A stretch of DNA of 64,000 nt from Isoetes taiwanensis. Lineage: Eukaryota > Streptophyta > Lycopodiopsida > Isoetales > Isoetaceae. The position numbers and the translations under genes are program-made. The stretch covers positions 3,162,001 through 3,226,000 of the forward strand of contig JAJEKV010000034.1 of the NCBI GenBank assembly GCA_021234155.1, read 5' to 3'. The notes below the pieces were generated by a model. That model was not told the origin of the DNA, ran no database searches, and worked only from the letters and a program-made list of their open reading frames with translations. Position 1 is the stretch's first letter, and each line of letters begins with the position of its first letter. Shown in pieces: positions 4,788 to 33,017 of the stretch.

Positions 4788-4803
4788 TTCTCCCCCCCTT
4801 AGG
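4788..4803 (-). other. Polypurine tract of inner element
   Basis: Minus-strand reading is AAGGGGGGGAGAA directly before the LTR's TGTGACG. This is the canonical position for plus-strand priming. Confidence 0.8.
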
Positions 4804-5566: not shown

Positions 5567-5649
5567 CCACACGATCCAAGGTTCTGGCACATGCACCCTA
5601 CTAACTAGAATGCATGCGCCAGGTCTAAGGCTAACTAACAACATACTAG

Positions 5650-6114
5650 CTAACCACGGCAGAGTCGGGTCGACCAAGTGAGGAGATGACTAAGCCCATC
5701 AAACTCCTTCATAAACTCTGGGTATTGCTTCTCCAAATCTTGCTTCAATACCCATGTCACGTCTTCCACGGGCAAGTGCTTCCACTTGACCAAATATTGG
5801 AGGAATTGGGACCACCTAGTCCTCTTGAATGACTTATCAAGAAGCAATTCAGGCACAATTTCAACTTCATCCTCCGTCATTTCCAACAAAGTTGGAGTAT
5901 CCAAACCCTCCTCAGGGTTAGGATCGTGCCTTTTTAATAAACTCACATGGAAGACCTTAAGGTGGGTCAAGAGATCCAACTTGCAGGCTTGAGAGCCCAC
6001 TCTTCTCCAAGATCTTGAACGGACCGGCCCACCTAGGGCGAGCTTCCTACAATTGCCGATGCGAAGCTTCCCTTGCTTAACCTTTACTTTAGCCAACTTT
6101 ATCTGCCACAACAA
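5650..6114 (-). pseudogene. Inner element integrase C-terminus and chromodomain
   Basis: The open stretch contains the VFHVSLLKRHDPNPEE motif found at the end of chromovirus integrases. A chromodomain-like segment follows (FLQYLVKWKHLPVEDVTWV) and then a helix (LEKQYPEFMKEF). The aromatic/charged pattern (Y..KW...W) is typical of a chromodomain that reads methylated histone tails. Upstream sequence is too decayed to join to an intact integrase. This section is much closer to the outer copy than the neighbouring pol sequence is. Confidence 0.85.
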
Positions 6115-6129
6115 AACAACTCTCGAGGA

Positions 6130-7500
6130 GTTTTATGTCTATCTGCTAGACTCTTCAAATATGCCCATGCTGTTGAAGATACTCTCACACTTCTACCAAA
6201 AGCTATCGCATATATGTTGTCGTTGTTGAGAAACTTCCACCTTGGGCACTAAATTATGCCACATAACTATGGTCACACATTGATAACTGTAACTGATCAT
6301 GGGGAAGACATCTTCGATGACTCTTGCTTTATATTATTGTACGTAATTGACCAGGTGGATGTACTCGGCCCATTTGGATTACTTGTTCCAATCATAGCTT
6401 CTCAACGTGCTCTCCAAAATTGTGTTGGTGCGGTCCCTTTGCCGATTGACTGCAATTGATAAGCAAAACTCATCAACAAGTTGGTGCAGCTCGTGTTGAA
6501 GAAGTCTTGCTAAACGTCGCTAAAGAACTTCGGATCTCTGTTGGTGATGATCGACCTGTGCATTCCATGCGGCCTAAAAGAACTCTTATGTAAACCACAC
6601 GGCTAGATCCAAGGCGGTGTCTATGGTGTGGCATGGCAAGTATGTGCCCTTTTGATAAGCTATATACCACAACTATCAAGGCTTTGAAGCTTCTTGTTGT
6701 CCTTGAAGGCCAACTATAAAGCCCATGCTGATGACTTCCCACTTGGTGTCTGGCACTGCCCAAGGTTCCAAAACTCTTGGAATCCGAAGTTGTTCCGCCC
6801 TTGTCCGCTGGCTCCACCGACATTCTTGGATATATCCGATTATCTACTTCTTCATACCCGCCGCACGGCTACTTCTAATCTTGAAGTAGGCCTTTATAAA
6901 TTTTGCATGGCTGGAAATAGGGCTATTATGTGTCATGGAAGATTGTTCTTACTTCTTATACTTTGGGTACGCATAATTGTTCTTTGCTATTAGAGATTGC
7001 CTTCCTTTTTAAACTATTTGAAGGTTTCTATTTCTTAATCCGTCCTTGCACTCTTGCAACGACTAGCCCATTATGTGCTTGAAGTCCATGTTGGGTAGAT
7101 GGCTTCTTCTATCTTCTTGCCGAATTCACTTGCCGAAGTGGAGATTGCAAATTGATGCTTCAAAGGCTTGCCAATGAGTGGCGGCGTCTTAGCATCTCCA
7201 TGGCTTCCCTCAATTGGGCTACATGCTCTTCCATTAATTTGCTGTAGATCACGATGTTGTTGAAGAGATATTGATGAAGAAATCATCCAAGGAATCTTCA
7301 AAGATGTCGTCCTCGAATGCATACAAATTGGTGGAGCATTCCATAGACTCAAGGGCATCACTGTGAAATGATAGTGCCCATACCAAGTTCTGAAGGAGTC
7401 TTATAATTATTTTTCCCCTTCATCCTTATTTGCTGATTGCCTGAGCTTAAGTCGATTTTGTAGAAGAATCCTGCTTCTTGGGGCTGATCCATTATGTCGT
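6130..7500 (-). pseudogene. Decayed integrase / RNase H / reverse transcriptase of inner element
   Basis: Base-level similarity to the outer pol can be followed. The RT palm region at about 7080-7370 lines up with outer 15620-15850: the segment before the palm reads M-PLSLWNAPP where the outer has [12 protein letters not shown]. The DD-containing palm strand is lost, reading as a run of Gln, Ser and Ile. Near 6500-6830, broken integrase sequence reads in several frames. There are many stops and substitutions and no continuous frame. The decay is far greater than in the LTRs or ORF1 of the same element. Confidence 0.75.
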
Positions 7501-9800
7501 TTACTTGCTGAGCTTCCCATGGTTGATATACATCTTTAGAATTCCACCTTGGCCGAAAGGATCCCCAAGTCGGTCAACTCTTACAACTGTTCCTTGTGTT
7601 CCTTGAGCTCTGCTAGCTTGGAAGTGCTCATTCTATAAAGAGCCTTGCTAATCCGGTGCAAGAGTGATTTTAGACTCTACGCCTCTATAGAGCACAAGCT
7701 CTCAAATTTCATCAGGGGATATATCATGGGACTTCTTAATTAACTTAGAAATTGGCCAAGGCAACTGTTTCGAAGTAGCATGTTCTTACTCTTGTAGTCG
7801 GGGTTGACAACTTGTAGCTTATGTACGACCTCATTCCTCATGATGTACTTAAGTAATTGCTTTACTGACATGCGTTGCACGATTGGAATTACTTAACTTA
7901 AATTATAAGGTACTTGCCCTTTGGTGCTGGGATAAGTATCTCTTGCTTATGATAATAAATTATTGCCTTAGCCGGCTTTAATATTGCATGTCTATTCTGA
8001 GGTCATGGCTGCCAATGTACATAAGTTGGTGCCGATGCTTTACTTAGCTATGCTTGAGGTTGATGTCGACTTGACTCTTGTTCCGTTGGTGCTGCTAATT
8101 ACTCGACCTTGCCTTAATTACTGGCCTAGATTTAGACTTAAGAGTCTTGCTCTTAAAGATGTCCGTCATCTAGGAGGTGCAAAATTACAAGTTAAAGAAC
8201 TACTTACATAAATCCTATGGCCACAAATTTAGTCGGCATGACATTACTTTTGGGCACACATAGAAAACTATATGGTTAGATAATTATTCTTGTTTCAGAT
8301 CTAATCTATAGTCTAGGATCTCCCCTTTCTTACTTATTGCCCTCTTGAAATAGTCCCACCTTTGAGTTGATGCCATCTAAGAAGTTGGCCGGACTTATTA
8401 GATTGCTTCCCTTCATTTGGTCGGATTATTCCTTATGTCATGAAGTACTGGCCATATACATGGTCGACGGTTATCCTATTATTGAATCCTTCTTAGCGAG
8501 GTGATCAAGTTCACTTAAGAGGTTCCAATATGTTGATATCTCGCACAATGTGTATACAATTATTGTACTCCATACATTTTCTTTCCAATACTTGAAGCTT
8601 TGCTCCATTCTTGGGTCCATCTTTCTAAAGGAAAAGACAAAAAATTCTACTCGAAATTTCGTCCCCATCCCATCATGGATGTTATCACCCATAATTCTAA
8701 GAAACTCAACTATCTGATAGGTCCCCTAGCTTGCTCAAAGCTGGTGTAGACATTAGTCATTGGAGTAGCAAGGCGATGATCCATAATTTGTTGAAAAGAA
8801 TCTGGTATCCTTGGAGTTGTTGTATGGTCCTTCAAGTGCCCCCGCTTTTATTGAACATATTTTGACTCGGCTCGTCCTTAATGTTGATGCTGACTACCTT
8901 CATTAACATTATCCCTCTTAGTGGACTTGCTGATGTAGATAACATAACGCTCGGTGTCGCATCCCAAGAGCTTGAAGATAATGTTCTTCACATTCTAGAA
9001 TCTTTCATGTCGCCATCCGCCTTTGGAGGTTACGAGATTCGAGGATGATTCTTCCAACTCCTGAATTGCTATTGTTGTGTTTGACCTTGTCGATTCTATT
9101 CTTCGCCTTGCTGGGTGCATGTTGTTGTTATAAGGTCGATGACAATGTTGGGTGCTTTACCGCTTCTAACCGGCAACTTCTCTTGCTGAGATGAGTTTAT
9201 GTGCATCCATCTCAGGGGGGACTAATCTTGACCGATCAATTAATAATGCCGGTATTTGGTCCCCCATGATGCCTCTTCTTGATGGTGTTTGACCTCCAAT
9301 CTCTCGAGGTGGAAGATCAAGATCATCATGAGCTTGGATGGTGTTGCCGAGGTTGATGTAGGCGCTCAAGTATTGGGGCTGATGAGGAAGAAATTTGTTG
9401 CGCCTCGCCATATGCCTACTCCCCGAGGAACCTACCCTTGTCGGCTTGCAATACCTCCTTAGTCAAAGCATGTCCGCTTGGAATCTAGATCCGATACTAC
9501 TATGTCCTCAGATATCTCAAGATAGTTGCCCTTCCTGAGGTGTATCCAAATCTCATCTTTTAGGGCTCTTGATATCATAAGTCGATGAAGTATACTTGTT
9601 GGTGGTGTAGTCTGTGGCATTAGTCATCGATGTGGGGTCGCTTCTTCCTATAGCCTCTCCTTTATTTTTCGTGTTCGGGCTTCCCCATACACCATCTTGG
9701 CCTTTGATTTGTTGAAGTTTCCTCCATAGTTTGCCCTCTTCTTTCAATTGTTGATGTTGTCGAAGTCTCTCCAATGTCGAGGCTCGAGGATTTGTGACGA
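7501..9800 (-). pseudogene. Decayed gag/protease region of inner element
   Basis: By position this should be protease and gag. Only short open stretches remain on the minus strand. One at 9166-9411 starts MARRNKFLPHQPQYLSAY, and a basic Gln-rich one lies at 9553-9774. I cannot identify a zinc knuckle or the protease active site. It does not look like the gag of the outer element, so it may come from a different lineage by recombination. Confidence 0.45.
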
Positions 9801-10395
9801 AGGTTCTCCTGACCTATTTTAATCGCCCTAAGCACAAGGCAATTAATACTACCCGCAAGAACAATTATTTACGCTTACTTACTCTACAAACCCTAATTTT
9901 TATACCTTTATCCACTCTACCTCAAATGACCCACTTGGCATATGGCACTCTACTAGGCAATCGAGAAAGGTACTTATTTACTATCGTGGGGTGGTAGAAG
10001 GAGATTTATTCAATCGAAAGTGTACTTGGTGTGCTAAGACTAAATTACTTAAATAGAATGAATTCCTAGATAATTATCTATGATACAAGGCATGGCTGAA
10101 GACACTTGATGATAGTGCACCTATAACGTGTGTTGGTGTACCCTACCAACGCAGTGACAACAATTTCTAAGGCCTTGGCAACTAGTCGGGTTTCTATGAA
10201 AAAGGTTTAATTATACTACCTACATGTAGAAAGAAGACACTTAGCAAGATAAGACGACAAGTAAGCTATGATGAGTGCAGGTGCTGTCTCTATCTAGCTT
10301 AAGGTTCTTGGTTCTAAATCTAAGGCTTGGCCATTAATATTATTTAACATTATTAAAGCTTAAATCTAATTAAGAATCCTAATTTAAACATAAAC

Positions 10396-10510
10396 GATGC
10401 CCGCCCTCAGTGGTTGGCACGGGGGGGTTTGGAGGGGTTCAACCTTGTGGGTGGGAGGTTCGATTCCCGCTACTGTGGGAATTCTTTTAAGATGAGGTTC
10501 AAATAGATTG
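10396..10510 (+). mobile_element. tRNA-derived SINE-like insertion
   Basis: A polymerase III A-box-like sequence (CTCAGTGGTTGG, 10406-10417) is followed at normal tRNA spacing by a perfect B-box (GGTTCGATTCC, 10457-10467). The rest does not fold as a normal tRNA, since there is a G-run in place of an anticodon stem. The downstream part is unrelated to tRNA, which is the SINE pattern. It could also be a tRNA pseudogene. The flanks 9801-10395 hold no recognisable coding frame. Confidence 0.6.
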
Positions 10511-10540
10511 AAAAGCTAGAATAGAGTGCTGCAAGATACT

Positions 10541-10620
10541 AGAATGCATGGAAAAGGCTAGGATATGCACTCAGAACTCTAGAATGCATGGAAAAGGCTA
10601 GGATATGCACTCAGAACTCT
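10541..10620. repeat. Perfect 40-bp tandem duplication
   Basis: The 40-base unit beginning AGAATGCATGGAAAAGGCTA occurs twice head-to-tail (10541-10580 and 10581-10620) without a mismatch. This suggests a recent slippage event inside the inner element's spacer. Confidence 0.95.
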
Positions 10621-10724
10621 TCATTGCAGTTTTGCCAAATCTTCTGATTCCAATTTTGCCAGGCACATGAAACCGGTGGCTGCATGCCAAATTTCTAGAC
10701 AGAGCACATAAAACCGGGTGGTCT

Positions 10725-11030
10725 GTGGCGAAAAAAATGGGCCTTCCGTGAAGGGTGCACATGAGGCCAATTTCATAGCCTTCCATTTCCCAATTTAAGG
10801 GTGCATAATGGTCAAGAGCCTTCGATTTGAATCTTTGGGACTTCTATCAAGAGTTTTAGAGAATTTAAAGATCCTAACATACTTATTTGGGAATTTCTAA
10901 CCTAATTTGGAACTTTTCCTGGGCTAATTGGGCAAAATTTGGCCTGGATATGGTGAAATCGGATGGCTATGCGAAAATGGGCCTTCCGTGAAGGGTGCAG
11001 AGGCCAATTTCGCACAGCCTTCCGATTTCG
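10725..11030. repeat. Two hairpin-forming modules between ORF1 and the gag region (inner)
   Basis: The block AAATGGGCCTTCCGTGAAGG occurs at about 10735 and 10975. In the second module the left arm (GAAATCGGATGGCTATGCG) pairs with the reverse complement of the right arm ending TTCCGATTTC. This gives a stem of about 28 bp. The first module is a decayed version. The outer element has two different hairpins in the same place. Confidence 0.65.
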
Positions 11031-11241
11031 GCTGTTTGGTCCAAAATTTAGCTAATTTGCCTATAGTACCCATACTAATTTACCCTATTTGGATGCTTAC
11101 AGTCATGGTGGCTACAACTAAACTAAAATTTGAGCAACTTAAACACATTTTAATACAAGAATTGAAGTCAATTAACAACAAAATTTTATATTTATAGAGG
11201 GGAAACTTAGCAATTACATTAATTTACACAAAACTTCATCC

Positions 11242-12225
11242 TCAAGGGTATTCCTTGCGGATGCGACGCGCCAAGTGCAAGTCCTTGGGCATCAGGGTCA
11301 CCCTCTTCGCGTGGATCGCGCAGAGGTTCCCTTCTTCGAACAACTGGGTGAGCTCAGCCTCAGCGGCTACTTGCAGCACTCGAGTTGTGAGCGACGTCAC
11401 CCTATAGTCGGTGACGAAGTCTTGCATGACCTCCCTCATGAGCCGCTCAAAAGGCGCCTTCCTAATCAGGAGATTAGTGCACTGTTGGAAGTGCCTAATC
11501 TCCCGAAAAACTCGGGCATGCCTTGTGTTCGGCCCATGGTGGACCTTCCTTGGCTTCTCGCGTGGCGGCGGCGGCGGCGGTTTTTCTTCTTTATCGGCCT
11601 CCCTCCCGTTATCGTTGAACGTTTTGGCGGCAGTACCAGTCGTTATACCTCGTCCAACGACGGAGGTATTCTTCATATGCCTTGAGGCGTGGCCCCAGAG
11701 TCGGGTCCTCCCTCAAGGCGAATCTGGCCGCCGGCCCGCTTTTCGCTTCTTAACCACCTTAGGTGGCTTGGGCCACTTTGGATAAGGTGGTCTTAAGGGC
11801 CGGGTTTGAAGATTCCCCGACGACTTCGGCCTCCTCCCCTTCTTCTTCCTCTTCATCCTCGCAAGCACCTCCTCGTCCATTCCGCAACCTTCTCCTTGCC
11901 CTTCTTCTTGGGTACCGGCGGGGCCGCCTCGAGGTTTGGTGCTGCTGCTGCTGCTCCACCTGCTCCTCAACCTGCTCTTCCACCTCTGTGTCCGAGGAAG
12001 GCCCAAAGTGGCGGGACTCTCCGATTCTCTGGGTGCCCGCCGACGAAGAACTGGTGCTGCTGGGCGGAATGTCTCGTCGCTGTTGCTGGAGGGAAGCTCC
12101 TCTTCCCCCTTCTTGGGTCGAAGGTGCTCTGGGATCTTCTTCACATGGCGACCTGCTGCTAAATGCGCAATCGAGAGTGTAGGTCGCTCACCTGGCTTCT
12201 TGGCTGTCTGCTTGGTTCGAGCCAT
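11242..12225 (-). CDS. Retrotransposon ORF1 with histone H3 tail and histone H3 fold (inner copy, frameshifted)
   Basis: A true ATG at 12225 opens a protein starting [16 protein letters not shown]. Its first residues equal the histone H3 tail: A1, R2, T3, K4, Q5, T6, A7 and a Lys at position 9. A charged, Pro/Glu/Lys-rich linker of about 200 residues follows. The last 90 or so residues are an H3 histone fold: [20 protein letters not shown] (alpha-N and alpha-1), [20 protein letters not shown] (alpha-2) and [19 protein letters not shown] (loop 2, alpha-3). Canonical H3 is 136 residues; this frame is about 327. A TGA at 11713-11715 interrupts it, but the frame before and the frame after are the same. 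Between them a shifted frame ([18 protein letters not shown]) matches the outer copy, so there are two compensating indels. It lies about 580 bp downstream of the PBS, where gag would normally begin, on the pol strand. It is not a host H3 gene in antisense. Confidence 0.92.
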
Positions 12226-12790
12226 ACTTGACAGTCTAGAAAACGGGTGACGTAAGGCTGACCAAGAGAGAGATGGTGGAGGAAAAGGTTGGAGGGAAAA
12301 TGAGGTGTCAGGGATATTTAAAAAGGAGGGTCCCTGGGAATTTTCCCTACCATTAATAGGCCTACTTATTAGCCCCCTTATTAATTACACCATAGTACCC
12401 TTATTATTAATATATATTAAATTTCTAATACACATACTAAAATTCCTATTATACCTTTAAAATTTCAAATTTCCTAATGGTTCGAAGTGTTAATTATGGA
12501 TTTGCGCCATTTTTCACTCGGGTCTCAGATTGGCATGATTCTTCGACCCATTTTAGGTGAAATTTGATGCAGATGCATAATTTTCACTCAAAATTTACTA
12601 GAAGGTAAATTTGACTCATTTATTTCTTCGTCTAACACTTAACCTAATTCCTGACCCACTACCTAGGAGAAAAAATTTTTCCCCTATTTTCGCGGTTCAA
12701 TGGTGGAAATGTTTATTTCACACCCCTATAGGCCTGTTAGACTACTTTCATGGTTATGGTCAGTGCTAGTTCTTGGTCAACCAAGAACAT
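12226..12790 (-). other. 5' leader of inner element
   Basis: This AT-rich sequence between the PBS and the ORF1 start is colinear with outer 21885-22446. It has no coding frame. It includes a conserved segment (TTTTTCACTCGGGTCTC on the plus strand near 12508) shared by both elements, as expected for a packaging or leader region. Confidence 0.7.
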
Positions 12791-12803
12791 CGCTCTGATA
12801 CCA
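12791..12803 (-). other. Primer binding site, initiator Met tRNA (inner)
   Basis: The minus-strand reading TGGTATCAGAGCG begins one base inside the 5' LTR end (…CGTCACA). TGGTATCAGAGC complements the 3' end of plant initiator tRNA-Met and is the commonest plant retrotransposon primer site. It fixes the element's orientation. Confidence 0.93.
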
Positions 12804-12804
12804 T

Positions 12805-14432
12805 TGTGACGCCCCCGCTAAATATACGGGCCCGCCACACTCGGCAGAAATCCCCATCCCGTCCATCAACCGCATGGGCCCTCCGCCTAACCCGCACTCG
12901 AGAGAATCCTAGTGCGGGCAGGGGACACGAAGGTGTCTTCCTGCCCCTTCCCCTATGGGCTCCTATCACAAATGAAGCATAAACAACGCCGTAACTAGCA
13001 ATAACAATACAACATACTACCTCGAAGGGTAGTCCATCACATATCCACAACTGCAAAGAAGATAATCCTAAGCCATAAAACATAAGAGCTCCTACCCATG
13101 GCTCCGACTCGTAAGGAGGGTGACTGACTGGCTAGGCCTCAAGATAGAGCAGACCGAGTCATAACAATGGCGGGGCTGGCTATAGACAATGGCTAGGGTT
13201 GACCACTCCATCCGCCCCTCCCCGCATACTTTGCGGATGGGCTAAATCGGCTCGCATGACTCTAGCCTTCCTGATAACGCAATCCCATGGCATCACCCAT
13301 CGGGACTACTCCGTGTTGCATCTCCCCTGGTCCGATGAGGCAGAAGGGTTGCATCTCCCCTTCCTGTGGTCTAGAGGTTCTCGTGGCTAGAGAATCGCGG
13401 GCGACACACCATTCGCACTCCGACTTAACCCCCCAAAACGAGAGCCAAGCCAACACTTGCAGCTCTCGAGAGGCAGGGCGACACCATTGCCCCAGGAGGT
13501 GTCGGACCCATGCTCGGCCCACACGAAGTGACCGACCATAGGCCTAGCCCACTATGGGATCCCCCGGCCCCCCACTGCGGCGGGGATCCTCCTCCACATT
13601 CCCTCTAGCCCCGCTATGTGGTGCTGAGTCACATCATAGCCTCGATAGCCTGGTGGGCTCCTATGCACAGGCCGCAACTAATAGGAACTAAGGGATCTAC
13701 TCTAGGAGCATACTACATATGGCCCTAGGTCTCTACCCCCCTTCCCAATACAAGAAGAGCAAACATGATCAACCAACATCACATAATCATCATATCCTAA
13801 GAATGATCATAAGAAGAACATCTTAACCTAATCATACAATCTAACTAATGGTTAGGGTTCATTGATTAGGGTTCAAGATGTTGAATACGGGTTCTAGGAT
13901 GGCTCTACTCTAGATACAAGATACTAGCACATCTGGAATGCTAATTCCAGATGAGCTATCACAACTACTACCCTACATACCTGCTCCTGATGCTCTCCCT
14001 CCAGATCCGTGTGCCTCCATGGTCTTCGACTCACGTGATGCTGCTCTTGCTTCAAGAACGAGTCTACCTCCGGGGCTGCCGCACCGCCTATGCCACAACA
14101 AACGATGTTCAAACGGGGGTTCAACGAGTAGGTGAGTCTCTCGGGTGCTAGGGCTGGAAAAGAGGCCTAGGTTAGGGTTTCACCTATATAAGTTAGGTCC
14201 ACCTAGGATGCCACGTGGCACCAATCGGGTGAGTCCTGTGTGGCGGGTGCCCCCAATAGGTTAAGGCCACGTGGATAATGGTCTAACCTATGGTTGGCTA
14301 AGTTATGAGAATAACTTGGCCATGCCCCCTAGTGCCACAATCTATGGTATACAAGGCTATGAAGATAGACTTGTATAGTGACGGATCCAGGAATATACGT
14401 ATTTATGGCGTATATTCCCCTGGACCGTCACA
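12805..14432 (-). repeat. 5' LTR of inner element
   Basis: 1628 bp, TGTGACG to CGTCACA in plus reading, paired with 3142-4787. It abuts the PBS on its left and the outer integrase on its right. The differences from its partner are mainly short indels in the GC-rich half. Confidence 0.95.
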
Positions 14433-14437
14433 ACGAC
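14433..14437. repeat. Target-site duplication (right), ACGAC
   Basis: Matches 3137-3141 exactly and bounds the nested insertion. Confidence 0.93.
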
Positions 14438-14746
14438 CATCAATGCATCCTTGCCTCGAAGAGTCTTGGGGAGTCCTGTGATAAAATCCATACTTACCAC
14501 TTCCCACTTTGCATTCGGCACTGCCAGAGGTTCCAAGGCACCTGGAATTCGAAGCTGCTCCGCTTTGGTTTGCTGGCACAACTGACACTCGCGAATATAT
14601 CTTGCTATCTGCTTCTTCATTCCCGGCCAGAAGTAGCTACTTCGAATCTTGAAGTAGGTCTTCATAAACCCTGCATGCCCTGCTATTGGGCTGTTGTGTG
14701 TGTCATGGAGGATTAGCTTCCTTACCCCTCGGCGATTCGCACACAC
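14438..14746 (-). pseudogene. Outer element integrase, zinc-binding domain and start of core
   Basis: Shows the HHCC zinc-binding pattern. The histidines are in LILHDTHNSPIAGHAGFMKT, followed by YFWPGMKKQI and the CQLCQQ cysteine pair. The core then begins with the first catalytic Asp in VSMDFITGLP. The reading breaks at DALMVVV exactly at the target duplication and resumes as VVVDKLSKMAHF at 3136. A shorter decayed stretch (14747-15130) links it to RNase H. Confidence 0.93.
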
Positions 14747-14999
14747 AACTTATGCTTATGATACAACAAGTTGCCTTCCTTCTTATAATGCTTGAAGGCT
14801 TCTCGCTTCCTTATCTGTTCTAGCCTCTCTAGAAAGGCTTTCCCATACCTCCTTGAAATCACCATCGATGGTAAAGTCTCCTCAATTCTCTTGCCATACC
14901 CGCCGAAAGAGTTGATATAGCATTACAATGAATTCTGTTTCAAGAGGTCTTCTAGAAAGAGCATCGGGCGACCACATTCGACTTACGGCTTATAAGCAA

Positions 15000-16300
15000 T
15001 CTCAAAGTCATACTCTTCTAGGAATTCCATCCACCTCCTTTGCCTCGTGATTCAGGAGTGGTTGGGTAAAAATGTATTGGAGGCTCGTGATCAGTATCTA
15101 ACCAAACTTCCTCCCAAGCAAATAATGCCTTCAAATCACGAAAGAGCCCCGACAATCGCTAGAAGTTCCTGATCATGGGTTGGATAGCGCTGCTCGGTGT
15201 CGTTCAACTTCTTGGAATCATAAGCTATTACCCTTCCTTCTTGCATAAGGACTCCACCTGTTGCTATCTTGCTTGCATCTGTTGCTACTATCTTGTCCTT
15301 GTCTGGATCTGGCAGAACTAGCACTGGTGCTGTTGTTAAGGCCTCCTTAAGCTTTTCAAATGAAGCTTGAACATTTTCTAACCAATGTGTTCTCCAATCT
15401 TTCACCTTAACACTCTTAGTGAGGTCCGTCAAAGGGGACGCCCACTTAACGAAGTCCTTCACGAACTTTCTGTAATAACCTGCCGGACCTAGAAAGCTTC
15501 TTACTTCCGCCACATTCTTTGGAGCTGGCCAATCTACTACCGCTTCGATCTTTGCGGGGTCGGTGGAGATTCCTTCCGCCGATATGACATGGCCCAAGTA
15601 CTCCACTCTTTCGGTAGCAAAGTGGCATTTGGAGAGCTTGCCATACAATCGATGGCGTCTCAGCTTCTCCAAGACTTTCCTCAAATGCTGATCATGATCT
15701 TCCATGGACTTGCTGTAGACTAGAATGTCGTCGAAGAAAACAATGACAAACTCATCTAGAAAATCCCTGAAGACGTCGTTCATGAGGCGCATAAAAGTTG
15801 CTGGAGCGTTCGACAATCCAAAGGGCATTACTGTAAACTCAAAGTGACCATACCGCGTTCTGAAGGCGGTCTTATGGATATCCTCTTCTTTTATTCTTAT
15901 TTGGTGGTACCCTGACCTCAAATCAATCTTGGAGAATACCTTTGCTCCTTGGAGCTGGTCCATTAAATCATCTGCCCTTGGCAAAGCATACTTGTTCTTT
16001 ATCGTCTGTTTGTTGAGCTGGCGATAGTCTATGCACATTCTTAAACTGCCATCTTTCTTCTTCACGAAGAGTATGGGTGCTCCAAAAGGAGACACACTTG
16101 CTCTAATAAAACCCAGCCAAGCAATTCTCGAGTTGCTTCTTGAGCTCAATCAACTCCTGTGCTCATCCCGTATGGTGCCTTGCTGGTAGGCTTAGCATCC
16201 GGTGCTAATGTGATCTCACACTCCACACCCCTATAAGGTGGTAGCTGCCGGATCTCATCCGGAATACATCCTTGAATTCTGAAATAAGCCTAGCTACCGG
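15000..16300 (-). pseudogene. Outer element reverse transcriptase and RNase H
   Basis: The RT fingers/palm motifs are well preserved: [73 protein letters not shown] and the catalytic [13 protein letters not shown]. The connection domain ([18 protein letters not shown]) and the RNase H start ([17 protein letters not shown], then [10 protein letters not shown]) follow. The open stretch runs 16149-15136. Upstream and downstream parts are readable only with frameshifts. The motif set is that of Ty3/gypsy chromoviruses. Confidence 0.93.
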
Positions 16301-16769
16301 GCTTGGGCAATTGCTTTCCCTTTGATCGCTTTCCCTCCTCGCTTATTGGGCTCGATTGCCTCCAATCTCAAGATGTAATCCACCTTATTTCTTTCTATAC
16401 TTTTCCTTAATCGCTTCAAAGAAATACACCGCATAGAAGAAGTCGCCTTCTTACCTCTCACTATGAATTTGGTGCCGTCCGGTGCTGTCATGGCGACTTC
16501 ATTAAGGCCGCAATCGATCATGGCTTTTTTGCTGGCTTTAGGAACTCCATTCCTACTATAAGGTCATACCTTCCAATCTCCATGACCTCTCCCATCGGCC
16601 ACTTACTTCCACTAAGGTCTATGTCGAATGTGATCCTCCTCCCCTTAGTGTGCCGAATGGCCGCCGCTTGCCATAGCAACCGCCTTGGCTTAGACTTCAA
16701 TACCTTGTTCTTCATTAGGGAAGCCAGCCTAGGAGAGGCAGAGTTATGAGAGCTACCTGTATCTATCAA
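16301..16769 (-). pseudogene. Outer element aspartic protease and protease-RT linker
   Basis: The retroviral-type protease active site is visible as LIDTGSSHN, with the flap-side and C-terminal strand recognisable as YDLIVGMEFLKPAKK. One frameshift near 16520 leads into the linker (MIDCGLNEVAMT...). The catalytic DTG triad is intact. The enzyme would act as a dimer to cut the Gag-Pol polyprotein. Confidence 0.85.
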
Positions 16770-16919
16770 TACTAGATATGGACTGCTATCTATGATCCCC
16801 TCAGCCGCAATGACTGTTGACTGACTTTCAATGTCATCTGACTCAATGTTTGCACATATGTGGCACTCACCATCTATGAAGTCCTGGCCTCATGCTGAGT
16901 CGCCGTTTCATCCGCTTTC

Positions 16920-18240
16920 GTTGGTGAATCCCAATCCATAAGTTCTCGCCAAGGTCACCCGCATGACCTAATGGGCAATCATGGGTTCGTTGCCGGCCGG
17001 AAGCACTAAACAAAGCTTCTTCTCAATACATTCCTGTCTCTTCTCTTTTAGCCAGTCGTCTAGAATACGCTTTAACATGCTGCCCCGATGCATTCTCCGC
17101 GGCTTACGGTCCCCAAAGTTCTTACCCTGAGCTCCCCTTGCCGCTGGCCTCCCCGATGGCGGTTCTTGCCGATTGCTTACTCTGTGCTGCCCTTGGTACC
17201 GTCCCGCTGACCTTCCTTTGAAGGCCGATTGTCTCTCACCGGCGGGCGCTGGAGCTTCTTCCAAACTTATGGCTTTATCCTCTTCCGCCAATCGACTTAG
17301 GGTTGATTGCTCGGACTAGCCTTTTTGATATTGCCGCTCAATCCCTCAATGTAAGTCTCGACCGCTTGCCTTTCCGACACTCCGTGAACATGGAGTCTAA
17401 GTCGCATAAATTCCTCTCAGATACTTTGCAACCGACAATGTACCTGGTTCAATCTATAGAACTGCTGGATCTCGCCTCGCTAGTATGTGACCTAGGCACA
17501 TAATGTCTCAAAAAAGCCTTGTGAAGGTCTTGAATCTGCAACCGCTTCCTTTTGAGCTTGTTAGACTTCGTGATAGCCTTTCCACCAGATTCTAGCTGCC
17601 CTATCAAGTTTGTCAGAGCAACTTTCCCTATGTCCTTATCCTTCATGCCATAAGAGTTGCCGAACTCTTCCATCTCGCCAAGCCGGCTTCGCCTCCATAC
17701 CCGACCGTCCTTCCCTCGAGAACTCCACCCAACTTCCTAGTCTTCCACACATTGCTCATAGCGGCACAACTAACTTTTCTTTTGATAATCATCTTCCTTC
17801 CTTGCCCCGGGCTCTTACCACGGGAGTGTCGGACTCACTTTCTCGAGCTAGAACCGTCATGACTGCCTCAAGTGTCCGATGAGCTGGAGCTAGGTGGTGT
17901 TGGAGATCTTCTGCTTTTCCTTTTCCTCCTCCCCTCTCGACATTTCCCTCGGGTTGTCTTGCCCCTCCCGCCGTGGACCTTTCTCAATGCCTTGCTGAGG
18001 TAGTGGTGGAGGTGGAGGTGGTGCAGGTGCATATTCTTGGGCATTCGTCAATGGGGTGGCCCAATGGATCAGCTGATGCATCTGATTCCTCATCTGTACC
18101 AGCCTTGCGTTGATTGCCTCCGGCGTCATTTCCTCGTTGTTGTCATCCTGATCACGTCCGAATAAGTTCCTTGGTATCCACTGATGCTGTCGGCCCTGGC
18201 CTTGGGAACCTGAGCCGGTGTTCCTTGCTGCAAGGATTGA
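16920..18240 (-). pseudogene. Outer element gag (frameshifted)
   Basis: The N-terminal part at 18129-17890 contains MTPEAINARLVQMRNQM and a Pro-rich run. Then comes a capsid-like segment with the pattern of plant gypsy gag (KDIGKVALTNLIGQLESGGK ... AFLRHYVPRSHTSEAR, 17650-17450). A basic RNA-binding tail follows at 17291-16968. Several stops and frameshifts interrupt it and I cannot see an intact zinc knuckle. Position between ORF2 and protease supports the call. Confidence 0.72.
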
Positions 18241-18443
18241 TCATCAATGCTTGTTATTTGTTTTATATATCAATTATATCCGTTTACAATTAATTCATTG
18301 TTAGATACAAAAGAAATCATGTGAAATTTCCACTTACAAGTCAAGATGATACTAAGTCATTAATATATAGAAGTACATTACATGATAACATCAAAGAGAT
18401 TACTCAATACAATTTAAAACTTAAAAGGAAATCTTATAGCTGA

Positions 18444-19976
18444 TCAATGGCCTCCTGAAAGCCTAAAGAAATTCTTCACATCTCTGAATCGGAGGCCTTT
18501 GCCGAGGTTGCGCAGGATGTTCCTTGTCGATCTTCCCTCGAGTGCTCGCGCCATTTCCGGTTCCGGGAGTTCTGGTGCAGTTGCTGCTACTACAGAAAGT
18601 GATGCATCCCTGAGGTGGCCCCTAGCGAAGTCGAGGCAATGGAGCGCCATGCACCTCTTGAAAAGGATGACGGATCTTCATGGGCGATATCTTCGAATGC
18701 TGCCCGAAGCCCGAGAGTGCTATGAGAAGTGCCACTGATTCTTCCCCCCTTGGACTGAACTCCTTGTGGAAGACTACCATTTGCCCTTGGCTGAGGGCTG
18801 GAAGATAGTAGCGTAGTGCCATACCCTTACCTGTGCCTCGTGATCCCGTGCCTTTCCTTTGAGCCGCTCCGCCGTAGGCATCTACTGCCATAAGGTCTTC
18901 ATGGTCTCTCCACATGCTGGTTGCATTGTCCAAGTTGATGCTACTGACCCTTCCCCTCATGCTCCCGCTCGAATCGCTCGGGCTTGAGCTTGGGCCCCTC
19001 CCCGGTTTGTACAGTGTGCTCAGATTCTGCTGGAACTCCTCCTCTGAAATGACAGTTTCTCGCCACGCCGATAGATTTCCCTATCTCGCCGATAGGCCGC
19101 TATGTCGGACATTGTCTCCCCAAAGATAAGAATGTCTTTCCGCCAGCTCCCTTGGAATCTCCTGGGTATGAATAGTCGATGAGGTCCGTGCTTTTCCCAT
19201 GTGCTATCATGCCTAGAAGCTCGCCGATTCAAGTCCCCTGTTCTCGGCAAGATGACAAGTTGAGGATGTCACTTGCTAGAATGTACTCCTCTCCGCCGAT
19301 GACTATCGGGCGATGAGCTGTGATGCCGACCGGTGGCTCGGTGGCTCTTCTGATGTCGTCGTCATGCCTCGACATGTACCTCTGCATTCTTGTCGCCTCT
19401 CTGCTCTCCCACTCTGGGTTTTGCTCCCCTAGCTGCTCGTAGTCTTCATGGATCTGCAGAGATGGTGCCTCAAGGCCGTGCCATAGTATTCGTGGGCGAG
19501 GACTCTATATTCAGGATTTGATCCTGGGCCCTACGGGTATCAAGTGGAGCTAAGTCTAAGGGCTGAACGGAAGGTTCCCCTACTTTGTTGATTGACTTAT
19601 AATGCATGAAGAGGGCAAGGGCGGTCTGAGATGAAAGGTACCTATGCCTATTATGTCTGCAGGTCATGTAATCCGCATGGTCCTAGTCCTATCCCATAGC
19701 CGCTTCTTGCCTTTGGATCCCCGCCATCTCTCTCTGACCTAAGGCTTGGGTGAGTGTCTCAAGAGAAACCCAATTCCCTCCCCTAGGGGGTAGTCTAACT
19801 TCCCAAGGTAGGACCTGTTGGTCATATTGGCACATGATATCTGTATAGTATGGTGTTCTAGACAGAGTTGCATGAAGATCAAACAAGTGGTCAAACACAG
19901 AGAAGGCTTGGTCAGCAGGGAGCTGATGGATATGGCTTGCAGCATTGTACCATCTCTCAAAGTTGTTGGGCGCCAT
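18444..19976 (-). pseudogene. ORF2 of outer element, unknown function
   Basis: Open stretches in changing frames fill the space between the H3-like ORF and gag. The first starts at an ATG at 19976 (MAPNNFERWYNAASHIHQ). Later pieces read HEDYEQLGEQNPEWESREA (about 19450), WEKHGPHRLFIPRRFQGSW (about 19190), MALRYYLPALSQGQMVVFHK (about 18810) and a final piece ending at 18444. Together they suggest a protein of roughly 500 residues. I recognise no domain. It could be an amino-terminal gag extension or an accessory protein. No clear equivalent is readable in the inner element. Confidence 0.5.
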
Positions 19977-20261
19977 TGAGCAAGGAAGGGTGCAGAAAAT
20001 GACTTGCAAGGATCAGTGAGGAGTTAGAAAATCGCCTAAGTGGTTGGGAGCAGTTCTGTGGAAGGAAAAATGACAAATGAGGCCCTTTTTATAGACTATG
20101 GTTGACCTCGGGATTCGTGCAAAAGGTTCCTAGATGGGGAAGACCTTGGTTCTACGGCTCTGGGTGTCCAATTGAGCTACCATGAAGTGCAAGTCTAAGC
20201 AAAGCAAAGCAAGCAACACTACATGGCAGTTTGTTTGGTCGAATTTGGCTAATTTGGGTCA

Positions 20262-20550
20262 AAATGGGCTGACCTCGGTGAGTCCGGCTGATGGCCTCCG
20301 CGTCGCGGACGCAGACGCGTTTGGCGCGGTCTCACCCGGTTGGCCTATTTTGGGCCAATTTTTTTGGTCATTTTTGGGAATTTCAAATGCTAACATGGCT
20401 AATTGGGCCGATTCTAAGCTAACTAGCAACTTATTTTGAGCAAAACCCGACATCTAAAAGCATGTTTTTGGGGCGTCCGGGTGAGTCCACATGATGGCCT
20501 CCGCTGTCGAACGCTAGACGCTTTGGCCCTGCCTCACCCGGTTGGGCCAA
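20262..20550. repeat. Two GC-rich hairpin modules between ORF1 and ORF2 (outer)
   Basis: Two related blocks, about 20264-20345 and 20468-20545, each contain GATGGCCTCCGC. Each is bounded by inverted arms (GGTGAG..CTCACC; in the second, CCGGGTGAG..CTCACCCGG). They sit in an otherwise AT-rich spacer (19977-20774) and parallel the hairpins at 10725-11030 in the inner element, with different stem sequences. Confidence 0.65.
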
Positions 20551-20774
20551 ATTTTGCTTTTTTTGATGATTTTTTTGCCAAAATTTTGTTGTAGTCATGA
20601 TTTCTAGGATATTTCTGAGGGTGCTATGAAGAATTCTACTACAATTGTGTTCTATTTCCTAAATTTCAAGCATACAACATTTTTCTAATTACAGAGGGGA
20701 AATACTTTTATATTAATAAGAAAACATAGTACATGAAAATTTAAACTTTCTAACAAAATTTACAAAATTAGGGC

Positions 20775-21884
20775 CTAGGGCCTCTCCCTGCGAATCCTCC
20801 GTGCTAAGTGAATGTCCTTTGGCATAAGGGTGACTCTCTTAGCATGGATGGCACAGAGATTTCCTTCCTCAAAGAGCTGCACCAGCTCTGCTTCAGCGGC
20901 CTCTTGCAGGGCCCGGGACGTTAGAGGAGTGATCCTATAATCGGTCCGGAACTCCTGCATGACTTCCCTAAGGAGGCGCTCGAAGGGCGCTTTCCTTATG
21001 AGGAGATTTGTGCGCATTTGGAAGTGCTTGATCTCCCTAAACACCCGGGCGTACACGTTGTTCGGCCCGTGGTGAACCCTTTTGGGTTTTTCCGGTCTAG
21101 GTGGGGGTGGCTTCGGCTGATTTTTCTTCGGCCTGCCGCCCTCCACGGCCCGCTGCACCTCTTGACGGCAATACCAATCGTTGTACCTCGTCCAACGACG
21201 GAGGTACTCCTTGTACGCCGCCATCTTCCGCTTAAACTCGCGGTCCTGTCGGAGCGCGAATGCCCGCTCCCCTACCTTTTGCTTCTTCACCACCTTAGGT
21301 GGCTCCGGCCACTTAGGGTAGGGTGGTCTCGCATCGGGGTCCTGCTGCGGCTCCTCCTCCTCTTCTCCGCCACCCTCCTCTTGCACTTCCTCCTCTACAC
21401 GAGGCTCTTCAATAACAACGGACTGGCGAGGTCGGTCGTTTCTTCTCTTTGTCCTCCGCTCTTGCTGCCTGAGCTCCCTTTCCCGCTCCCTCTTCTTCCT
21501 GGCGGCCCTCTCCTCCGGCCACTCCGCGACCTTTTCCTTACCCTTCTTCTTGGGCGCGAAGGGGCCGCTTCCCTCAGTTTGGTGGTGATCTTTGCTCTTC
21601 CACCTGTTCTTCAACTTTGTTCTTCCACCTCGGTGTGCGGGGCCCCGAGTGGCGAGATTCATCCGTTCTCTGCGTGCCTCGATGGCCAAGCTGCTCTTCC
21701 GGGCTCTCCTCGGCATCATGGAAGCTCTGGTAAGCCTTTAGCTGCTTTCTTTGCTAGGGGAACTCCTCGTCGCGCCCCGGCCGAAGGTGTTAGGGGACCT
21801 TCTTGGCGATGCCGCCTGCTGCTGCGCCATGGAGAGGGGTGGGCCTAGGGCCGCTTCTGTGTAGGTTTGCTTGGTGCGTGGCAT
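20775..21884 (-). CDS. Retrotransposon ORF1 with histone H3 tail and histone H3 fold (outer copy, one in-frame stop)
   Basis: The ATG at 21884 gives [14 protein letters not shown], so R2, T3, K4, Q5 and T6 of the H3 tail are kept while A1 is Pro and K9 is Glu. A TAA at 21738-21740 interrupts the frame. The same frame then stays open from 21719 to 20775, 369 codons overall. The linker is strongly charged (Lys/Arg/Glu runs) with the shared block [15 protein letters not shown]. The last 100 or so residues form the H3 fold: [57 protein letters not shown] and [11 protein letters not shown]. Equivalents of H3 Cys110, His113, Arg116 and Asp123 are present. The H3-H3 dimer and H4 contact surfaces in alpha-2/alpha-3 look intact by sequence. 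Function is unknown; nucleosome incorporation or decoy binding of tail readers is my inference. Confidence 0.92.
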
Positions 21885-22446
21885 GTCTTGTGGTTCAAGA
21901 AATGGGTGACGTAAGGCTGATCAAGAGAGAGGTGAAGGTGAAGGGTTGGAGAGAGGGAATGAGGTGTCAGATATTTAAAAAGGAGGGTCCCTAGGAATAT
22001 TCTCCCACCATAATTACCCCTATTTATTATGGCCTCCCTTATTAATTACACCATATTTAGTAATTATTTAATTATTAATGTATATATTAACTTTGTATTA
22101 ATTTTGTATTATACTTTAAATTTTCGAATTTCCTAATAGTTTGATGTGCTAATTATGAATTCGCGCCATTTTTCACTCGGGTCTCCGATTGGCATGATTC
22201 TTCGACCCATTTTATGTGAAATTTGATGCAGGTACATAATTTCCACACCAATTTACTAGAGGATGAATTCGACTGATTCATTTCTTCGTCTAACACTTAA
22301 GCTAATTTCGGACCCACTACCTAAGAGAAAAGTTTTTCCCTTATTTTCGAGGTTCGATGGTGGAAATTTTTATTTCACACCCCTATAAGCTTGTTAGACT
22401 ACTTTCAAGGTTATGGTGAGTGCTAGTTCCTGGTCAACCAAGAACA
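21885..22446 (-). other. 5' leader of outer element
   Basis: AT-rich noncoding sequence between PBS and ORF1, colinear with 12226-12790. The PBS-to-ATG distance is almost the same in both elements (about 577 bp). Confidence 0.7.
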
Positions 22447-22460
22447 TGGCTCTGATACCA
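22447..22460 (-). other. Primer binding site, initiator Met tRNA (outer)
   Basis: Reads TGGTATCAGAGCCA on the minus strand, next to the LTR end. It matches the tRNA-iMet complement better than the inner copy does. Confidence 0.93.
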
Positions 22461-22461
22461 T

Positions 22462-24106
22462 TGTGACGCTCCCTGCTAAATATACGGGCGGTAGTACACT
22501 TTCGGCAGAAATCCCCATCCGCTCAACAAAAAGACAGGCCCCGCCTACCCCGCACTCTAGGGTGACCCTAGTGCGGGGAGGGGACACGAAGGTGTCTTGG
22601 CGCGCCCTTCCCCTATGGGCTCCTATAACAGTGGAAGCGATAAACATGTCAGAACTAGCATCAACAATACAAATACTACCTCGAAGGGTAGTCCATCACA
22701 TATCCAAAGGTGCAAAGAACATAGCCACATACCATAAAACGTGAGAGCTCCTACCCGTGGATCTCGACACATAAGGAAGTCGATCGATTTGATAGGCCTC
22801 AAGATAGAGCGGAACCGAGTCATAACAATGGCGGGGCTGGCATAAGACAATGGCTAGGGTTGACCACTCCATCCGCCCCTCCCATGCATACCTTGCGGAT
22901 GGGCTAGATCCAGGCTCGGCATGACTCTAACCTTCCTGGATCACGCAATCCCATGGCATCACCCATCGGGACTACTCCAGCTGCATCTCCCCGTCCGTCG
23001 AGGTAGGAAGGGTTGCATCTCCCCTTCCGGGTCTAGAGGCTCCATTTGTATTGCGCTAGAGAATCGTGACACACACGATCTGCACCCGACAACCCCCAAA
23101 ACAAGAGCCAAGCCGACACTTGCAACTCTTGAGAGGCGTGGCAACACCTTCGCCCCCCAGGGAGGTGTCGGGACCCATGCCCGCCCACACGCGAGGTGAC
23201 CGGCCATAAGCCTAGCCCACTATGGGATCCCCCGTAGTCCCCACTCGGCAGGGATCCTCCCTCCATATTGCCTCTAGCCCGTTGTGTAGTGCCGAGTCAC
23301 ATCATAGCCTCCATAGCCCGGTGGGTTCCTATGCACAAGTGCCGCAATCTAATAGGAACTAAAGGGATCTATACTAGGAACATACTACATATGGCCCTAG
23401 GTCTCTACCCCCTTCCCAACACAAGAGGAACAAACATGATCAACCATCATCCCATAATCATCATGAACAATATCATATGAACTTCTTAACCCAATCATAC
23501 ATATCTAACTATTAGTTAGGGTTCATTGATTAGGGTTCAAGATGTTCAACAAAGGATCTAGGGTGGCTCTACTCTAGCTACGAAATACTAACCCATCTGG
23601 ATTGCTAACTCCCAGATGAACTGACATGGACTCTACTCAACCTACCTCCTCCGTAAGCGCTTCCTCCCATCCCCCTGGCGTCTCCATGCTCCTTGGACGT
23701 GGCTCAAGACTTGCTCCCTCTCACGATCATACACACCTTCCGGGGCTGCTGCCTCGTGCTAGGCTACGACGAGCGATGCTCTAAACGGAGTTTGGGCGCT
23801 GATGGGATGGGGGTTTAGGTGCTAGGTCGGGGGAAAAGGTCTAGGGTTAGGGTTAGAGCTAATATAGGTGTGGGTCCACATGGGATGCCACGTGGCACCA
23901 CTAGGATGAGGCCGTGTGGTGGTTGCCCAATAGGATAAGGCCATGTGGAAATGGGTCTTATCCTAAGGTTATCTAAGTTAAACAATTAACTTAGATGTGC
24001 ACCCCTTGCCACTTCCCAATGCATACAAGGCTACCCAGGTAGACTTGTATGGTGACGGGTCCAGGAATATACGTATATATAGCGTATATTCCCCTGGAAC
24101 GTCACA
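22462..24106 (-). repeat. 5' LTR of outer element
   Basis: 1645 bp, TGTGACG to CGTCACA in plus reading, with the terminal palindrome at 24052-24105. Its right end abuts a CACACA/CCACCA microsatellite, so the element inserted at the edge of simple-sequence DNA. Its partner LTR is at 1-1277. Confidence 0.94.
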
Positions 24107-24350
24107 CACACCCCATCACCACACTCCACCATGTCCCACACCACACTCCACCACCACCACACACCCCACCACCACCACCACCAAACCCCACCACCACACA
24201 CACCACCACCACCACCACACACACACACCTCCACCACCCCACCACCACCACACACACCACCACCACAGCGTGTTGTGTGGTGTGTACTGTGCAGCGTATG
24301 TTGTGTGGTGTGTGGTATGTGGTGGTGTGTAGAGACTACCTTGTGTTGTG
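24107..24350. repeat. CCACCAC / GTGTGGT microsatellite
   Basis: Irregular runs of CCACCAC and CACACA give way near 24270 to the opposite-strand composition (GTGTGGTGTGT). Open frames here translate to His/Thr/Pro repeats and are composition artefacts. A longer tract of the same kind lies at 40930-41520. Confidence 0.9.
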
Positions 24351-25440: not shown

Positions 25441-25484
25441 ATGTAGCTTAGTTTACATGTTAAGTTCCATTGTCCAAAGAGGGG

Positions 25485-26076
25485 TGTTAGTCCTGTGCCT
25501 CCTGGTACAGGACTATTCATGCATACGACGGACCAAGTCAAGCTCAAGGATCCACAGACAGGCACGGGTCAGTCGTCCAAGGCCCAGCAGAAGACCAAGC
25601 CGCAGACCACGCAGTCAAAGCCTGCGTCCGTCAACAAGAGGCGCCGCTCAGACAAGTGACGGCCCGTCACCACCAAGCGTCCACCGGGCGTGATTCTAGG
25701 CACTTCAAGAGGCACCGCCAACATTCCTCAGAATCGGGCCTCCTTCCGTGAGTCGGCACCCCGAGATCAGTCAGAGTGTCTATATTGGGCCAAAGGCCAT
25801 TGTACTATATATATGAGTAGAGCTAGCACATGAGTTTTTAGATGAGTTTTGAGTCTTGTCTCTCTTCAGTCTTCTCTCGATTGTGAGAGCTCATGTATGT
25901 TCATCATTGATATCAAGGAAGCTTATCATTTTCCTCTCATTGTTCTCTTTGTTCTATTTTCTTCTTCTTGTTCTTTTCTTGCAAATCCCGCGTGACATAG
26001 TCCCCCGAATTCTCCTGTTAGATCCAAGGGTCCTCACAGAGGGCTGTCCTTTGCGTTCGAACCCGGACCCCAAACA
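25485..26076 (+). repeat. 5' LTR
   Basis: Pairs with 36001-36600. It contains a TATA-like ACTATATATATGAGT near 25803-25817 followed by GTAGAGCTAGCACATGAG, a plausible transcription start region shared by both LTRs. Confidence 0.93.
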
Positions 26077-26125
26077 CCGCCGCCGCGCTGCTTGTCTAAT
26101 TCGATCCTCATTTCTTACGTAAACC

Positions 26126-29950: not shown

Positions 29951-29976
29951 AGTCCGCATTAGTTTCAATCCGAGAA

Positions 29977-30700: not shown

Positions 30701-30719
30701 ACGCCTTTCCTGACGCTCA

Positions 30720-33000: not shown

Positions 33001-33017
33001 TTTTTCCGAAATCTTTG

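Follow-up and report, generated by a model that had tools for sequence, protein, structure and literature searches.

The stretch of Isoetes taiwanensis DNA analyzed here (64,000 nucleotides of contig JAJEKV010000034.1, positions 3,162,001 to 3,226,000; in the following the window, to which all coordinates refer unless a locus is named) harbors, on the minus strand of positions 1–24106, two Ty3/gypsy chromoviruses, one residing within the other. As judged from sequence comparisons, both carry a putative histone H3-variant gene between the primer-binding site (PBS) and gag. Two nested elements of this type, each featuring an open reading frame (ORF) with an H3 fold in this place, had been proposed by an initial inspection of the letters alone (the sequence-only reading) and were confirmed by means of Pfam and by matches to sequences of the Protein Data Bank (PDB). 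The equal placement claimed for both elements also proved correct, the H3-type starts being located 576 nt (outer element, 21884) and 578 nt (inner element, 12225) downstream of the PBS.

The outer H3 gene, encoded like all parts of both elements on the minus strand, comprises a first piece with an MPRTKQT start (21738–21884), whose frame ends ahead of the main ORF, and the main ORF of 314 amino acids (20775–21719), in which the Pfam Histone domain was recognized at residues 205–310 (PF00125, 107.7 bits, E 5.8e-31). Its fold of 100 residues (20778–21077) terminates where H3 has its C-terminus. In the inner element, a first piece encoding an MARTKQT start and the linker (11713–12225) is followed by a second piece encoding the complete H3 fold (11242–11676; PF00125, 106.3 bits, E 1.6e-30). 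In both genes, the frame is disrupted between start and fold, by a stop at 21738 in the outer copy and by the split 11713/11676 in the inner one. Hence, the full H3 fold announced by the sequence-only reading was found, whereas the single open frame ending in it was not; moreover, that reading had spotted the outer fold ORF but overlooked the H3-like start at 21884.

The 60 matches listed for the outer ORF among PDB sequences all belong to histone H3 or its variants, the best with E 3.4e-31. Searching the whole outer ORF against a protein database (5.8 billion entries) returned 2137 matches, and the 26 inspected among the 120 listed are H3s of the ordinary type, fusions containing H3, or H3s whose N-terminus differs. 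The linker alone had no match in this database up to E 10. Searches of viral contigs and phages yielded no match. The two folds of the window share 82% amino acid identity though 80 of their 300 nucleotides differ, with 15, 10 and 55 differences at first, second and third codon positions, respectively. In 2000 neutral simulations with 80 changes, amino acid identity amounted to 50% on average and 59% at maximum, and the likeness of the two folds is therefore not due to chance.

The outer element is bounded by a 5′ long terminal repeat (LTR) at 22462–24106 (TGTGACG...CGTCACA) and a 3′ LTR at 1–1275, which extends beyond the window edge; over this compared part, both LTRs are 96.7% identical (ungapped). 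Next to the 5′ LTR, the PBS TGGTATCAGAGC (22449–22460), presumably of the initiator-Met tRNA type, and the untranslated leader reaching from the LTR to the H3 start (21885–22461) were identified. Downstream of the H3 gene, pieces of a second extra ORF (ORF2, 18622–20012, no Pfam match) precede gag remnants (16968–17736), which by eye resemble the gag of the genomic loci L039 and L063 described below; Pfam detected no gag within the window, where this gene is broken. These are followed by the aspartic protease (16518–16889, RVP_2 E 1.3e-4), the reverse transcriptase (RT) with the start of RNase H (15136–16149, RVT_1 E 1.9e-41) and the zinc-binding part of the integrase (14433–14746), which is interrupted by the inner insertion and resumes beyond it with the core and SH3-like part (2290–3136; rve, SH3_Tf2-1) and the chromodomain (2094–2330, Pfam Chromo E 4.7e-12). 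The inner element (3142–14432) thus sits in the integrase gene of the outer one. It features LTRs at 12805–14432 (5′) and 3142–4787 (3′) with 97.0% identity (ungapped), the same PBS TGGTATCAGAGC at 12792–12803, an integrase C-terminus with chromodomain (5650–6132, Pfam Chromo E 1.1e-9) and a perfect 5-bp target-site duplication GTCGT at 14433–14437 (5′ side) and 3137–3141 (3′ side).

The order of PBS beside the 5′ LTR, protease, RT, RNase H and integrase in the outer element is that of Ty3/gypsy elements (Metaviridae), to which LTRs with short terminal inverted repeats and a 5-bp target-site duplication also conform, and an integrase C-terminal chromodomain, characterizing chromoviruses, is present in both window elements as well as in the genomic locus L064 (E 4.7e-11). 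Features of hAT transposons were not observed: the family is bounded by LTRs, and no transposase domain occurs among the ORFs scanned.

Further repeats were noticed in the window. A gypsy-type element on the plus strand (25481–36600) contains gag (26781), RNase H (29977–31239) and integrase (31085); direct repeats at 25481–26076 and 35997–36600 (87% identity) are probably its LTRs, and no histone match was found among its ORFs scanned. Moreover, a copia-type gag is located at 62630–63208 (Retrotran_gag_2, E 6.8e-24). GT/CA-rich simple repeats at 24103–24330 and 41017–41518 are mutually related in opposite orientation, and one of them adjoins the 5′ end of the outer LTR.

The genome was searched in an assembly of 1,658,258,908 bases in 1110 contigs; the published assembly is described as 1658.30 Mb (204 scaffolds, 909 contigs; PMC8566536). 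Of 18,239 first-look candidates obtained with the outer ORF, the best 126 were scored, the remaining ones being unverified; all 126 match at 70–100% identity, and 103 show no stop within the matched stretch (count by row). Thirty loci of this family, referred to as family A (L009–L038, L009 being the window copy), were picked by H3 similarity and inspected. An M[A/P]RTKQ start is present in 29 of them (exactly MARTKQT in 27), a recognizable PBS 518–579 nt upstream of the start in 25, the leader in 29 and an LTR end beside the H3 gene in 28. Seventeen distinct loci are open from MARTKQ into the fold (364–375 amino acids), including L035, whose last residues are altered by a frame break.

Since these 30 loci had been selected by H3 similarity, the non-coding leader of the outer element (with one extra base) was used as genome probe. 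The best 40 of 1,722 candidates were scored, and the best 24 places served as sample; stretches downstream of 20 of these were newly inspected, and the H3 genes of the other four had been identified before (window copy, L010, L013 and C1078:1605932, the last with one stop in the H3 matched stretch). An H3 gene was found just downstream of the leader in all 24 cases. All 20 newly inspected copies begin with MART (17 with MARTKQT) and contain the H3 fold. The possibility that other copies lack the H3 ORF was thus tested and did not materialize, and the claim that this ORF regularly belongs to a family of LTR retrotransposons was borne out by these matches together with the purifying selection described below.

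None of the 20 copies is open from the start to the end of the fold. Frame-breaking gaps inside the fold occur in 16 of them, and a stop codon in the fold in nine according to the tblastn alignment or in two according to a codon alignment following the gaps. In three LTR pairs (two in the window and that of L039/L064), indel events relate to substitutions as 37:49, 28:41 and 36:41, most indels being single-base. Because indels are nearly as frequent as substitutions in these pairs, residual long-read assembly errors in repeats may contribute to the broken frames.

A complete family A element was recovered at L039 and L064 (L039 and L010 are the same copy, counted twice in the pooled A set). 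It is located within a copia RT gene (RVT_2 E 1.1e-77), flanked by the target-site duplication GCACT, with an identity of 97.5% between its LTRs (1621 aligned bases). It features an open H3 ORF of 369 amino acids and the chromodomain, and its gag and RT frames are broken. This element documents recent mobility of family A. Further peculiarities were observed for single loci. In L066 and L080, the linker between H3 tip and fold is seemingly deleted, the fold beginning 135–169 nt after the start of the stretch and still being 98–100% identical to that of L010. L032 contains, on the minus strand (3074–3635), a second leader copy followed by an MARTKQT start (3643) beyond the H3 gene, which points to a further nested or tandem copy.

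In a Pfam histone search of the genome, the best 150 of 8,705 candidates were scored. The top 15 matches reached 164–165 bits, and the eight inspected among them are ordinary host H3. From the other 135 matches, 22 loci were inspected (L040 and L041 in 10-kb and 20 in 1.5-kb stretches), with 113 left unread. An open H3 frame of 139–494 amino acids was present in all 22, which says nothing of the frequency of open copies, because these loci were mostly selected for long open frames. They revealed three more lineages, termed B, C and D, in which a near-canonical H3 fold is placed behind another N-terminal domain, starting with METPKQV or MEEVKQV in B, MPRFKLTVDLKK in C and MANTKSAPDP in D. This domain is common to B, C and D; that of C had no PDB sequence match up to E 1 and no Pfam match. 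Homology of the family A insert to this domain was considered and rejected (hhalign probability 0.3%).

The layout of these lineages was deduced from 10-kb stretches (L040 and L041 for B, L062 for C, L063 for D) and consists of the PBS, then the H3 ORF, then ORF2. The PBS AGTGGTATCAGAGC was found in L062 and L063, and TGGTATCGAGC was recognized in L040 and L041 by eye only, a pattern search having found none. Accordingly, the position of the H3 gene relative to the PBS is alike in four lineages, with the PBS of B as assigned by eye. ORF2 between H3 and gag (also at L062:4785–5720 and L063:4756–5931) has no Pfam match in the window, L062 or L063; it is alike in places between C and D, and the best match between A and B covers 22 residues (E 0.003). 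In D, gag-protease follows ORF2 (L063, Ty3_capsid E 9.5e-15), and a tblastn search with this L063 region matched A (L039, E 5e-46) and B (L040 and L041, E 9e-103 and 3e-44). L040 furthermore encodes a protease detected by Pfam and an RT (E 2e-71). No gag or RT match was found in the 5.5 kb after the H3 ORF of L062 (L062:4513–10000), which may be a non-autonomous or interrupted copy. In L063 (7089–9233), the protease passes directly into the integrase, with RT missing and the H3 ORF still open; this locus looks like a non-autonomous derivative retaining H3. The sequence ahead of H3 is common to L040, L062 and L063 (80–83% identity over 0.9–1.6 kb) and more distant in L041 (73–75%); a shorter part is shared by L040, L062 and L063 with the LTR of family A (73–78%). 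LTR pairs were not observed in B, C or D, only sequence resembling the A LTR, the 3′ ends being located outside the stretches examined.

In order to evaluate the conservation of the fold, residues were tabulated for 53 rows (31 of A with one locus represented twice, two of B, 15 of C and five of D), a set which leaves out L035, with its changed fold end and length, and the 20 leader-chosen copies. Apart from the two window copies, all rows stem from searches by H3 similarity. The fold is complete up to the H3 C-terminus according to Pfam, the PDB sequence matches and this table. At the positions which we take to be the H3 contacts, the loop-2 DNA contacts 115–118, 120 and 122 and the H3–H3′ residues 108, 110, 113, 114, 123, 126, 127, 129 and 130 are identical to those of host H3 in each of the 53 rows; residue 109 does so in 52 and residue 104 in 42, with Leu in 11 of the 15 C rows. 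Moreover, R69, R72 and R83 are retained in all rows and R63 in 52. Together with the deviations of family A at residues 39–45 and 56 described below, this pattern would be expected of a protein forming H3–H4 tetramers on DNA and holding the DNA ends differently.

The family A protein is composed of about the first nine H3 residues (ARTKQT[A/Y]RK), a long charged insert and the complete H3 fold; ARTKQT and mostly R8 and K9 are kept, and the rest of the ARTKQTARKS... tail is not. Retention of an H3 tail in B–D, suggested by TPRKSG and STGGK stretches noticed by eye, was not supported, six of seven sequences not exceeding their shuffles (number of 500 shuffles that attained the score: B 170 and 188; C 368, 157 and 23; D 126 and 442).

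Selection was assessed by the ratio of nonsynonymous to synonymous differences per site (pN/pS). For the window pair, selected independently of score, the fold value of 0.158 (95% interval 0.089–0.242) is the lowest of six coding regions compared (linker 0.50, RT 0.41, integrase zinc part 0.26, integrase core 0.29, chromodomain 0.26). The idea that the inner pol had decayed long before H3 was rejected, as the inner RT and integrase values (0.41, 0.26, 0.29) are also well below 1. Within the 18 open rows of family A, the fold (0.08), a basic stretch, a PPYPKW..QEVQR stretch and a GGRPKK stretch are tight (0.06–0.09), and the acidic and serine-rich parts are the loosest (0.27–0.32). Between the families, divergence is deep (pS 0.78–0.91) and the fold is retained. 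These substitution patterns indicate purifying selection on the H3 fold; neutral decay of a single captured host gene, the outcome that would contradict the sequence-only reading, was tested and did not occur.

In the phylogenetic tree, family A forms one group (support 100/99), and B, C and D are united in another (95/92 and 94/92); descent of all four families from a single capture was not rejected (approximately unbiased test, p-AU 0.126). A metagenomic H3 with 27 members (P0097), which begins with MARTKKT and has an insert preceding the fold, branches with family A (84/72 and 83/86). This grouping may be due to long-branch attraction, and P0097 may be another mobile H3. A control search for histone H4 resulted in 69 candidates, as compared to 18,239 first-look candidates for the H3 ORF, and in 43 matches, comprising 16 full-length genes at ≥99% identity and 27 partial or diverged ones. 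Of these two histones, H3 was thus taken up and spread by the elements and H4 was not amplified.

Centromeric H3 variants (CENH3, CENP-A) resemble the family A protein in having a divergent long tail, and A has a few CENH3-like residues recognizable by eye (HFQ..TNLLI, VTLM). CENH3s carry a loop-1 insertion relative to canonical H3. No gap was observed in this region when the window folds were compared to H3 from REI to the C-terminus; family A ends at the H3 C-terminus and occupies its own tree branch, and a CENH3 origin of A is not supported. The CENH3s in the tree are two sequences whose placement is unsure given their long branches. A search for the host CENH3 with an Arabidopsis query (best 150 of 7,013 candidates) returned canonical H3 at the top, other H3-fold loci and no clear CENH3, which introns or the limit to these 150 candidates may hide. 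Whoever looks for host H3 or CENH3 in a genome of this kind thus obtains mostly other H3-fold loci, and those inspected are element-type copies.

Among the papers listed by the literature search, which had most subscription papers and preprints outside its reach, none describes a histone gene in an LTR retrotransposon; the sequence-only reading likewise knew of no described family with an H3 ORF. The word histone is absent from the main text of the genome papers on I. taiwanensis (PMC8566536) and I. sinensis (PMC10541799). For another class of mobile elements, an H3-like ORF (H3L) has been published, namely for a hAT DNA transposon of Pyrenophora tritici-repentis (PMC3538342). Like the Isoetes elements, this transposon amplifies an H3-like ORF together with another ORF of unknown function; it has, however, terminal inverted repeats and 26 very similar, recently expanded copies (PMC3538342), whereas the Isoetes system consists of LTR retrotransposons in four diverged lineages with a long inserted domain and sequence evidence of selection. 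Orchid gypsy elements carry an AlkB N6-methyladenosine (m6A) demethylase in an additional ORF, likewise a captured and retained host-type domain, and 15 unusual domains in all were reported for LTR elements of 121 angiosperm genomes (PMC9289625). No histone is among the domains named in the corresponding section, and lycophytes were not covered by this screen because it addressed angiosperms (PMC9289625). Viral histones, including bracovirus H4, single viral H3s with extended tails and Marseillevirus doublets (PMC9145170), are also parasite-encoded, with a conserved fold and a remodelled or extended tail. They belong to DNA viruses, the words 'retrotransposon' and 'retrovirus' being absent from the main text of that review (PMC9145170), whereas in Isoetes a retroelement carries H3 and no amplified H4 was found in the genome. 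A mobile element with a captured histone therefore has precedent; as far as found, an old, diversified and selected retrotransposon H3 gene has none.

The sequence-only reading had put forward packaging of the element's DNA, marking of insertion sites or interference with host silencing as possible functions of the protein, each of which is considered here as a hypothesis. The host writes its silencing marks on the H3 tail, much of which is replaced in the element protein. Given that the H3–H3′ and loop-2 DNA-contact residues are kept, the element-encoded H3 variant would be predicted to pair with host H4 and to be deposited in nucleosomes, and a functional, incorporated variant appears reasonably probable. 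With less certainty, element DNA, either new complementary DNA (cDNA) or young insertions, might thereby gain chromatin that the host cannot mark and silence as usual, so that the element would stay expressed long enough for self-copying. Silencing-resistant element chromatin would be the simplest use of a replaced tail, even though this anti-silencing step is, taken by itself, somewhat doubtful. The explanation as a whole, comprising the H3 variant, its deposition with host H4 and escape from silencing, is favoured here at about even chances.

The window also invites the interpretation that element H3, present in nucleosomes at element-rich sites, serves as a landing mark preferred by the integrase via its chromodomain, so that new copies would land in old ones. 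This is unlikely, although the chromodomain is located at the integrase end of both window elements, one element is inserted in a relative, and a modelled contact between an integrase motif of a wheat centromeric element and CENH3 was presented in a review (PMC12786077). A single nested pair is no test of clustering, and the L039 element inserted in a copia element. Moreover, the chromodomain by eye seems to keep one and to lack two of three aromatic cage residues, at positions which we take to correspond to the HP1 cage. The sequence-only reading had referred to chromoviruses reading H3 marks through their integrase; the chromodomain is indeed present, but direct reading of H3 methylated at K9 is doubtful given this incomplete cage. 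Similarly unlikely is a decoy function, in which the protein would be mostly soluble or perturb host chromatin globally and would lower host silencing by occupying H4, chaperones or readers of the ARTKQT tip. It would agree with the exact MARTKQT of 27 of 30 A loci, with the H3-type interfaces retained by the folds and with the altered host gene expression caused by a bracovirus H4 with extended tail (PMC5423620, PMC9145170). Families B–D, however, do not keep the tip, and a function exerted via the tip cannot be shared by all lineages.

Packaging of the H3 protein into virus-like particles or the pre-integration complex, where it would condense cDNA before integration, is less probable still. 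The loop-2 DNA contacts and the arginines R69, R72, R83 and, in 52 of 53 rows, R63 are kept, and the H3 gene is located upstream of gag; however, no sign of fusion to gag was noticed, no amplified H4 was found in the genome, and H3 is not known to wrap DNA without H4. Least probable and already disfavoured is a passive hitchhiker, i.e., a host H3 copy captured once and carried without use. The 22 frame-broken copies among the 24 sampled by the leader and the non-rejected single capture (p-AU 0.126) are compatible with it, but the window fold pN/pS of 0.158, the 82% identity as compared to at most 59% under neutrality and the retention of the fold across the deep divergence between families argue in the opposite direction.

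Several observations weigh against the favoured explanation of an incorporated, silencing-evading H3 variant. Only two of the 24 leader-sampled copies (L010 and L013) are open through the fold, and the 20 newly inspected ones yielded a pooled pN/pS of 0.371 (0.245–0.532), a value that blends selection in source copies with decay after insertion. The lower pooled fold values of A (0.097, 31 rows), B (0.032, two rows), C (0.060, 15 rows) and D (0.053, five rows) are biased downward, as they originate from best-scoring loci which for B–D were picked for long open frames. Regarding the protein, family A differs from host H3 throughout residues 39–45 in nearly every row (ungapped comparison) and has Met, once Gln, at residue 56 instead of the host K56. 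Structure predictions of the lone chain are of low confidence. Constraint on the H3-like tail stretch is weaker than on the fold in the open A rows (pN/pS 0.22 vs. 0.08, 18 rows). Furthermore, family A retains K4 and mostly K9, so that marks could still be placed on the tip of its tail, a point which makes the anti-silencing step less convincing.

In plants, the marks that silence transposons are written on histone H3. A lineage of LTR retrotransposons in which a selected H3 variant of its own has been maintained for a long time would directly exemplify the entry of a genomic parasite into the chromatin code. The four deeply diverged families would constitute a natural set of H3 variants bearing on the question of which parts of the protein serve assembly and which serve silencing. 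As a broader and more tentative proposal than any step of the favoured explanation, a clade of retroelements may build its own chromatin, its H3 variant and host H4 forming element-specific nucleosomes with a custom tail and a chromatin state written by the parasite. If true, such nucleosomes would be the retroelement counterpart of CENH3-type variants and viral histones, and some nucleosomes of the quillwort genome may be parasite-encoded, provided that incorporation of the protein takes place.

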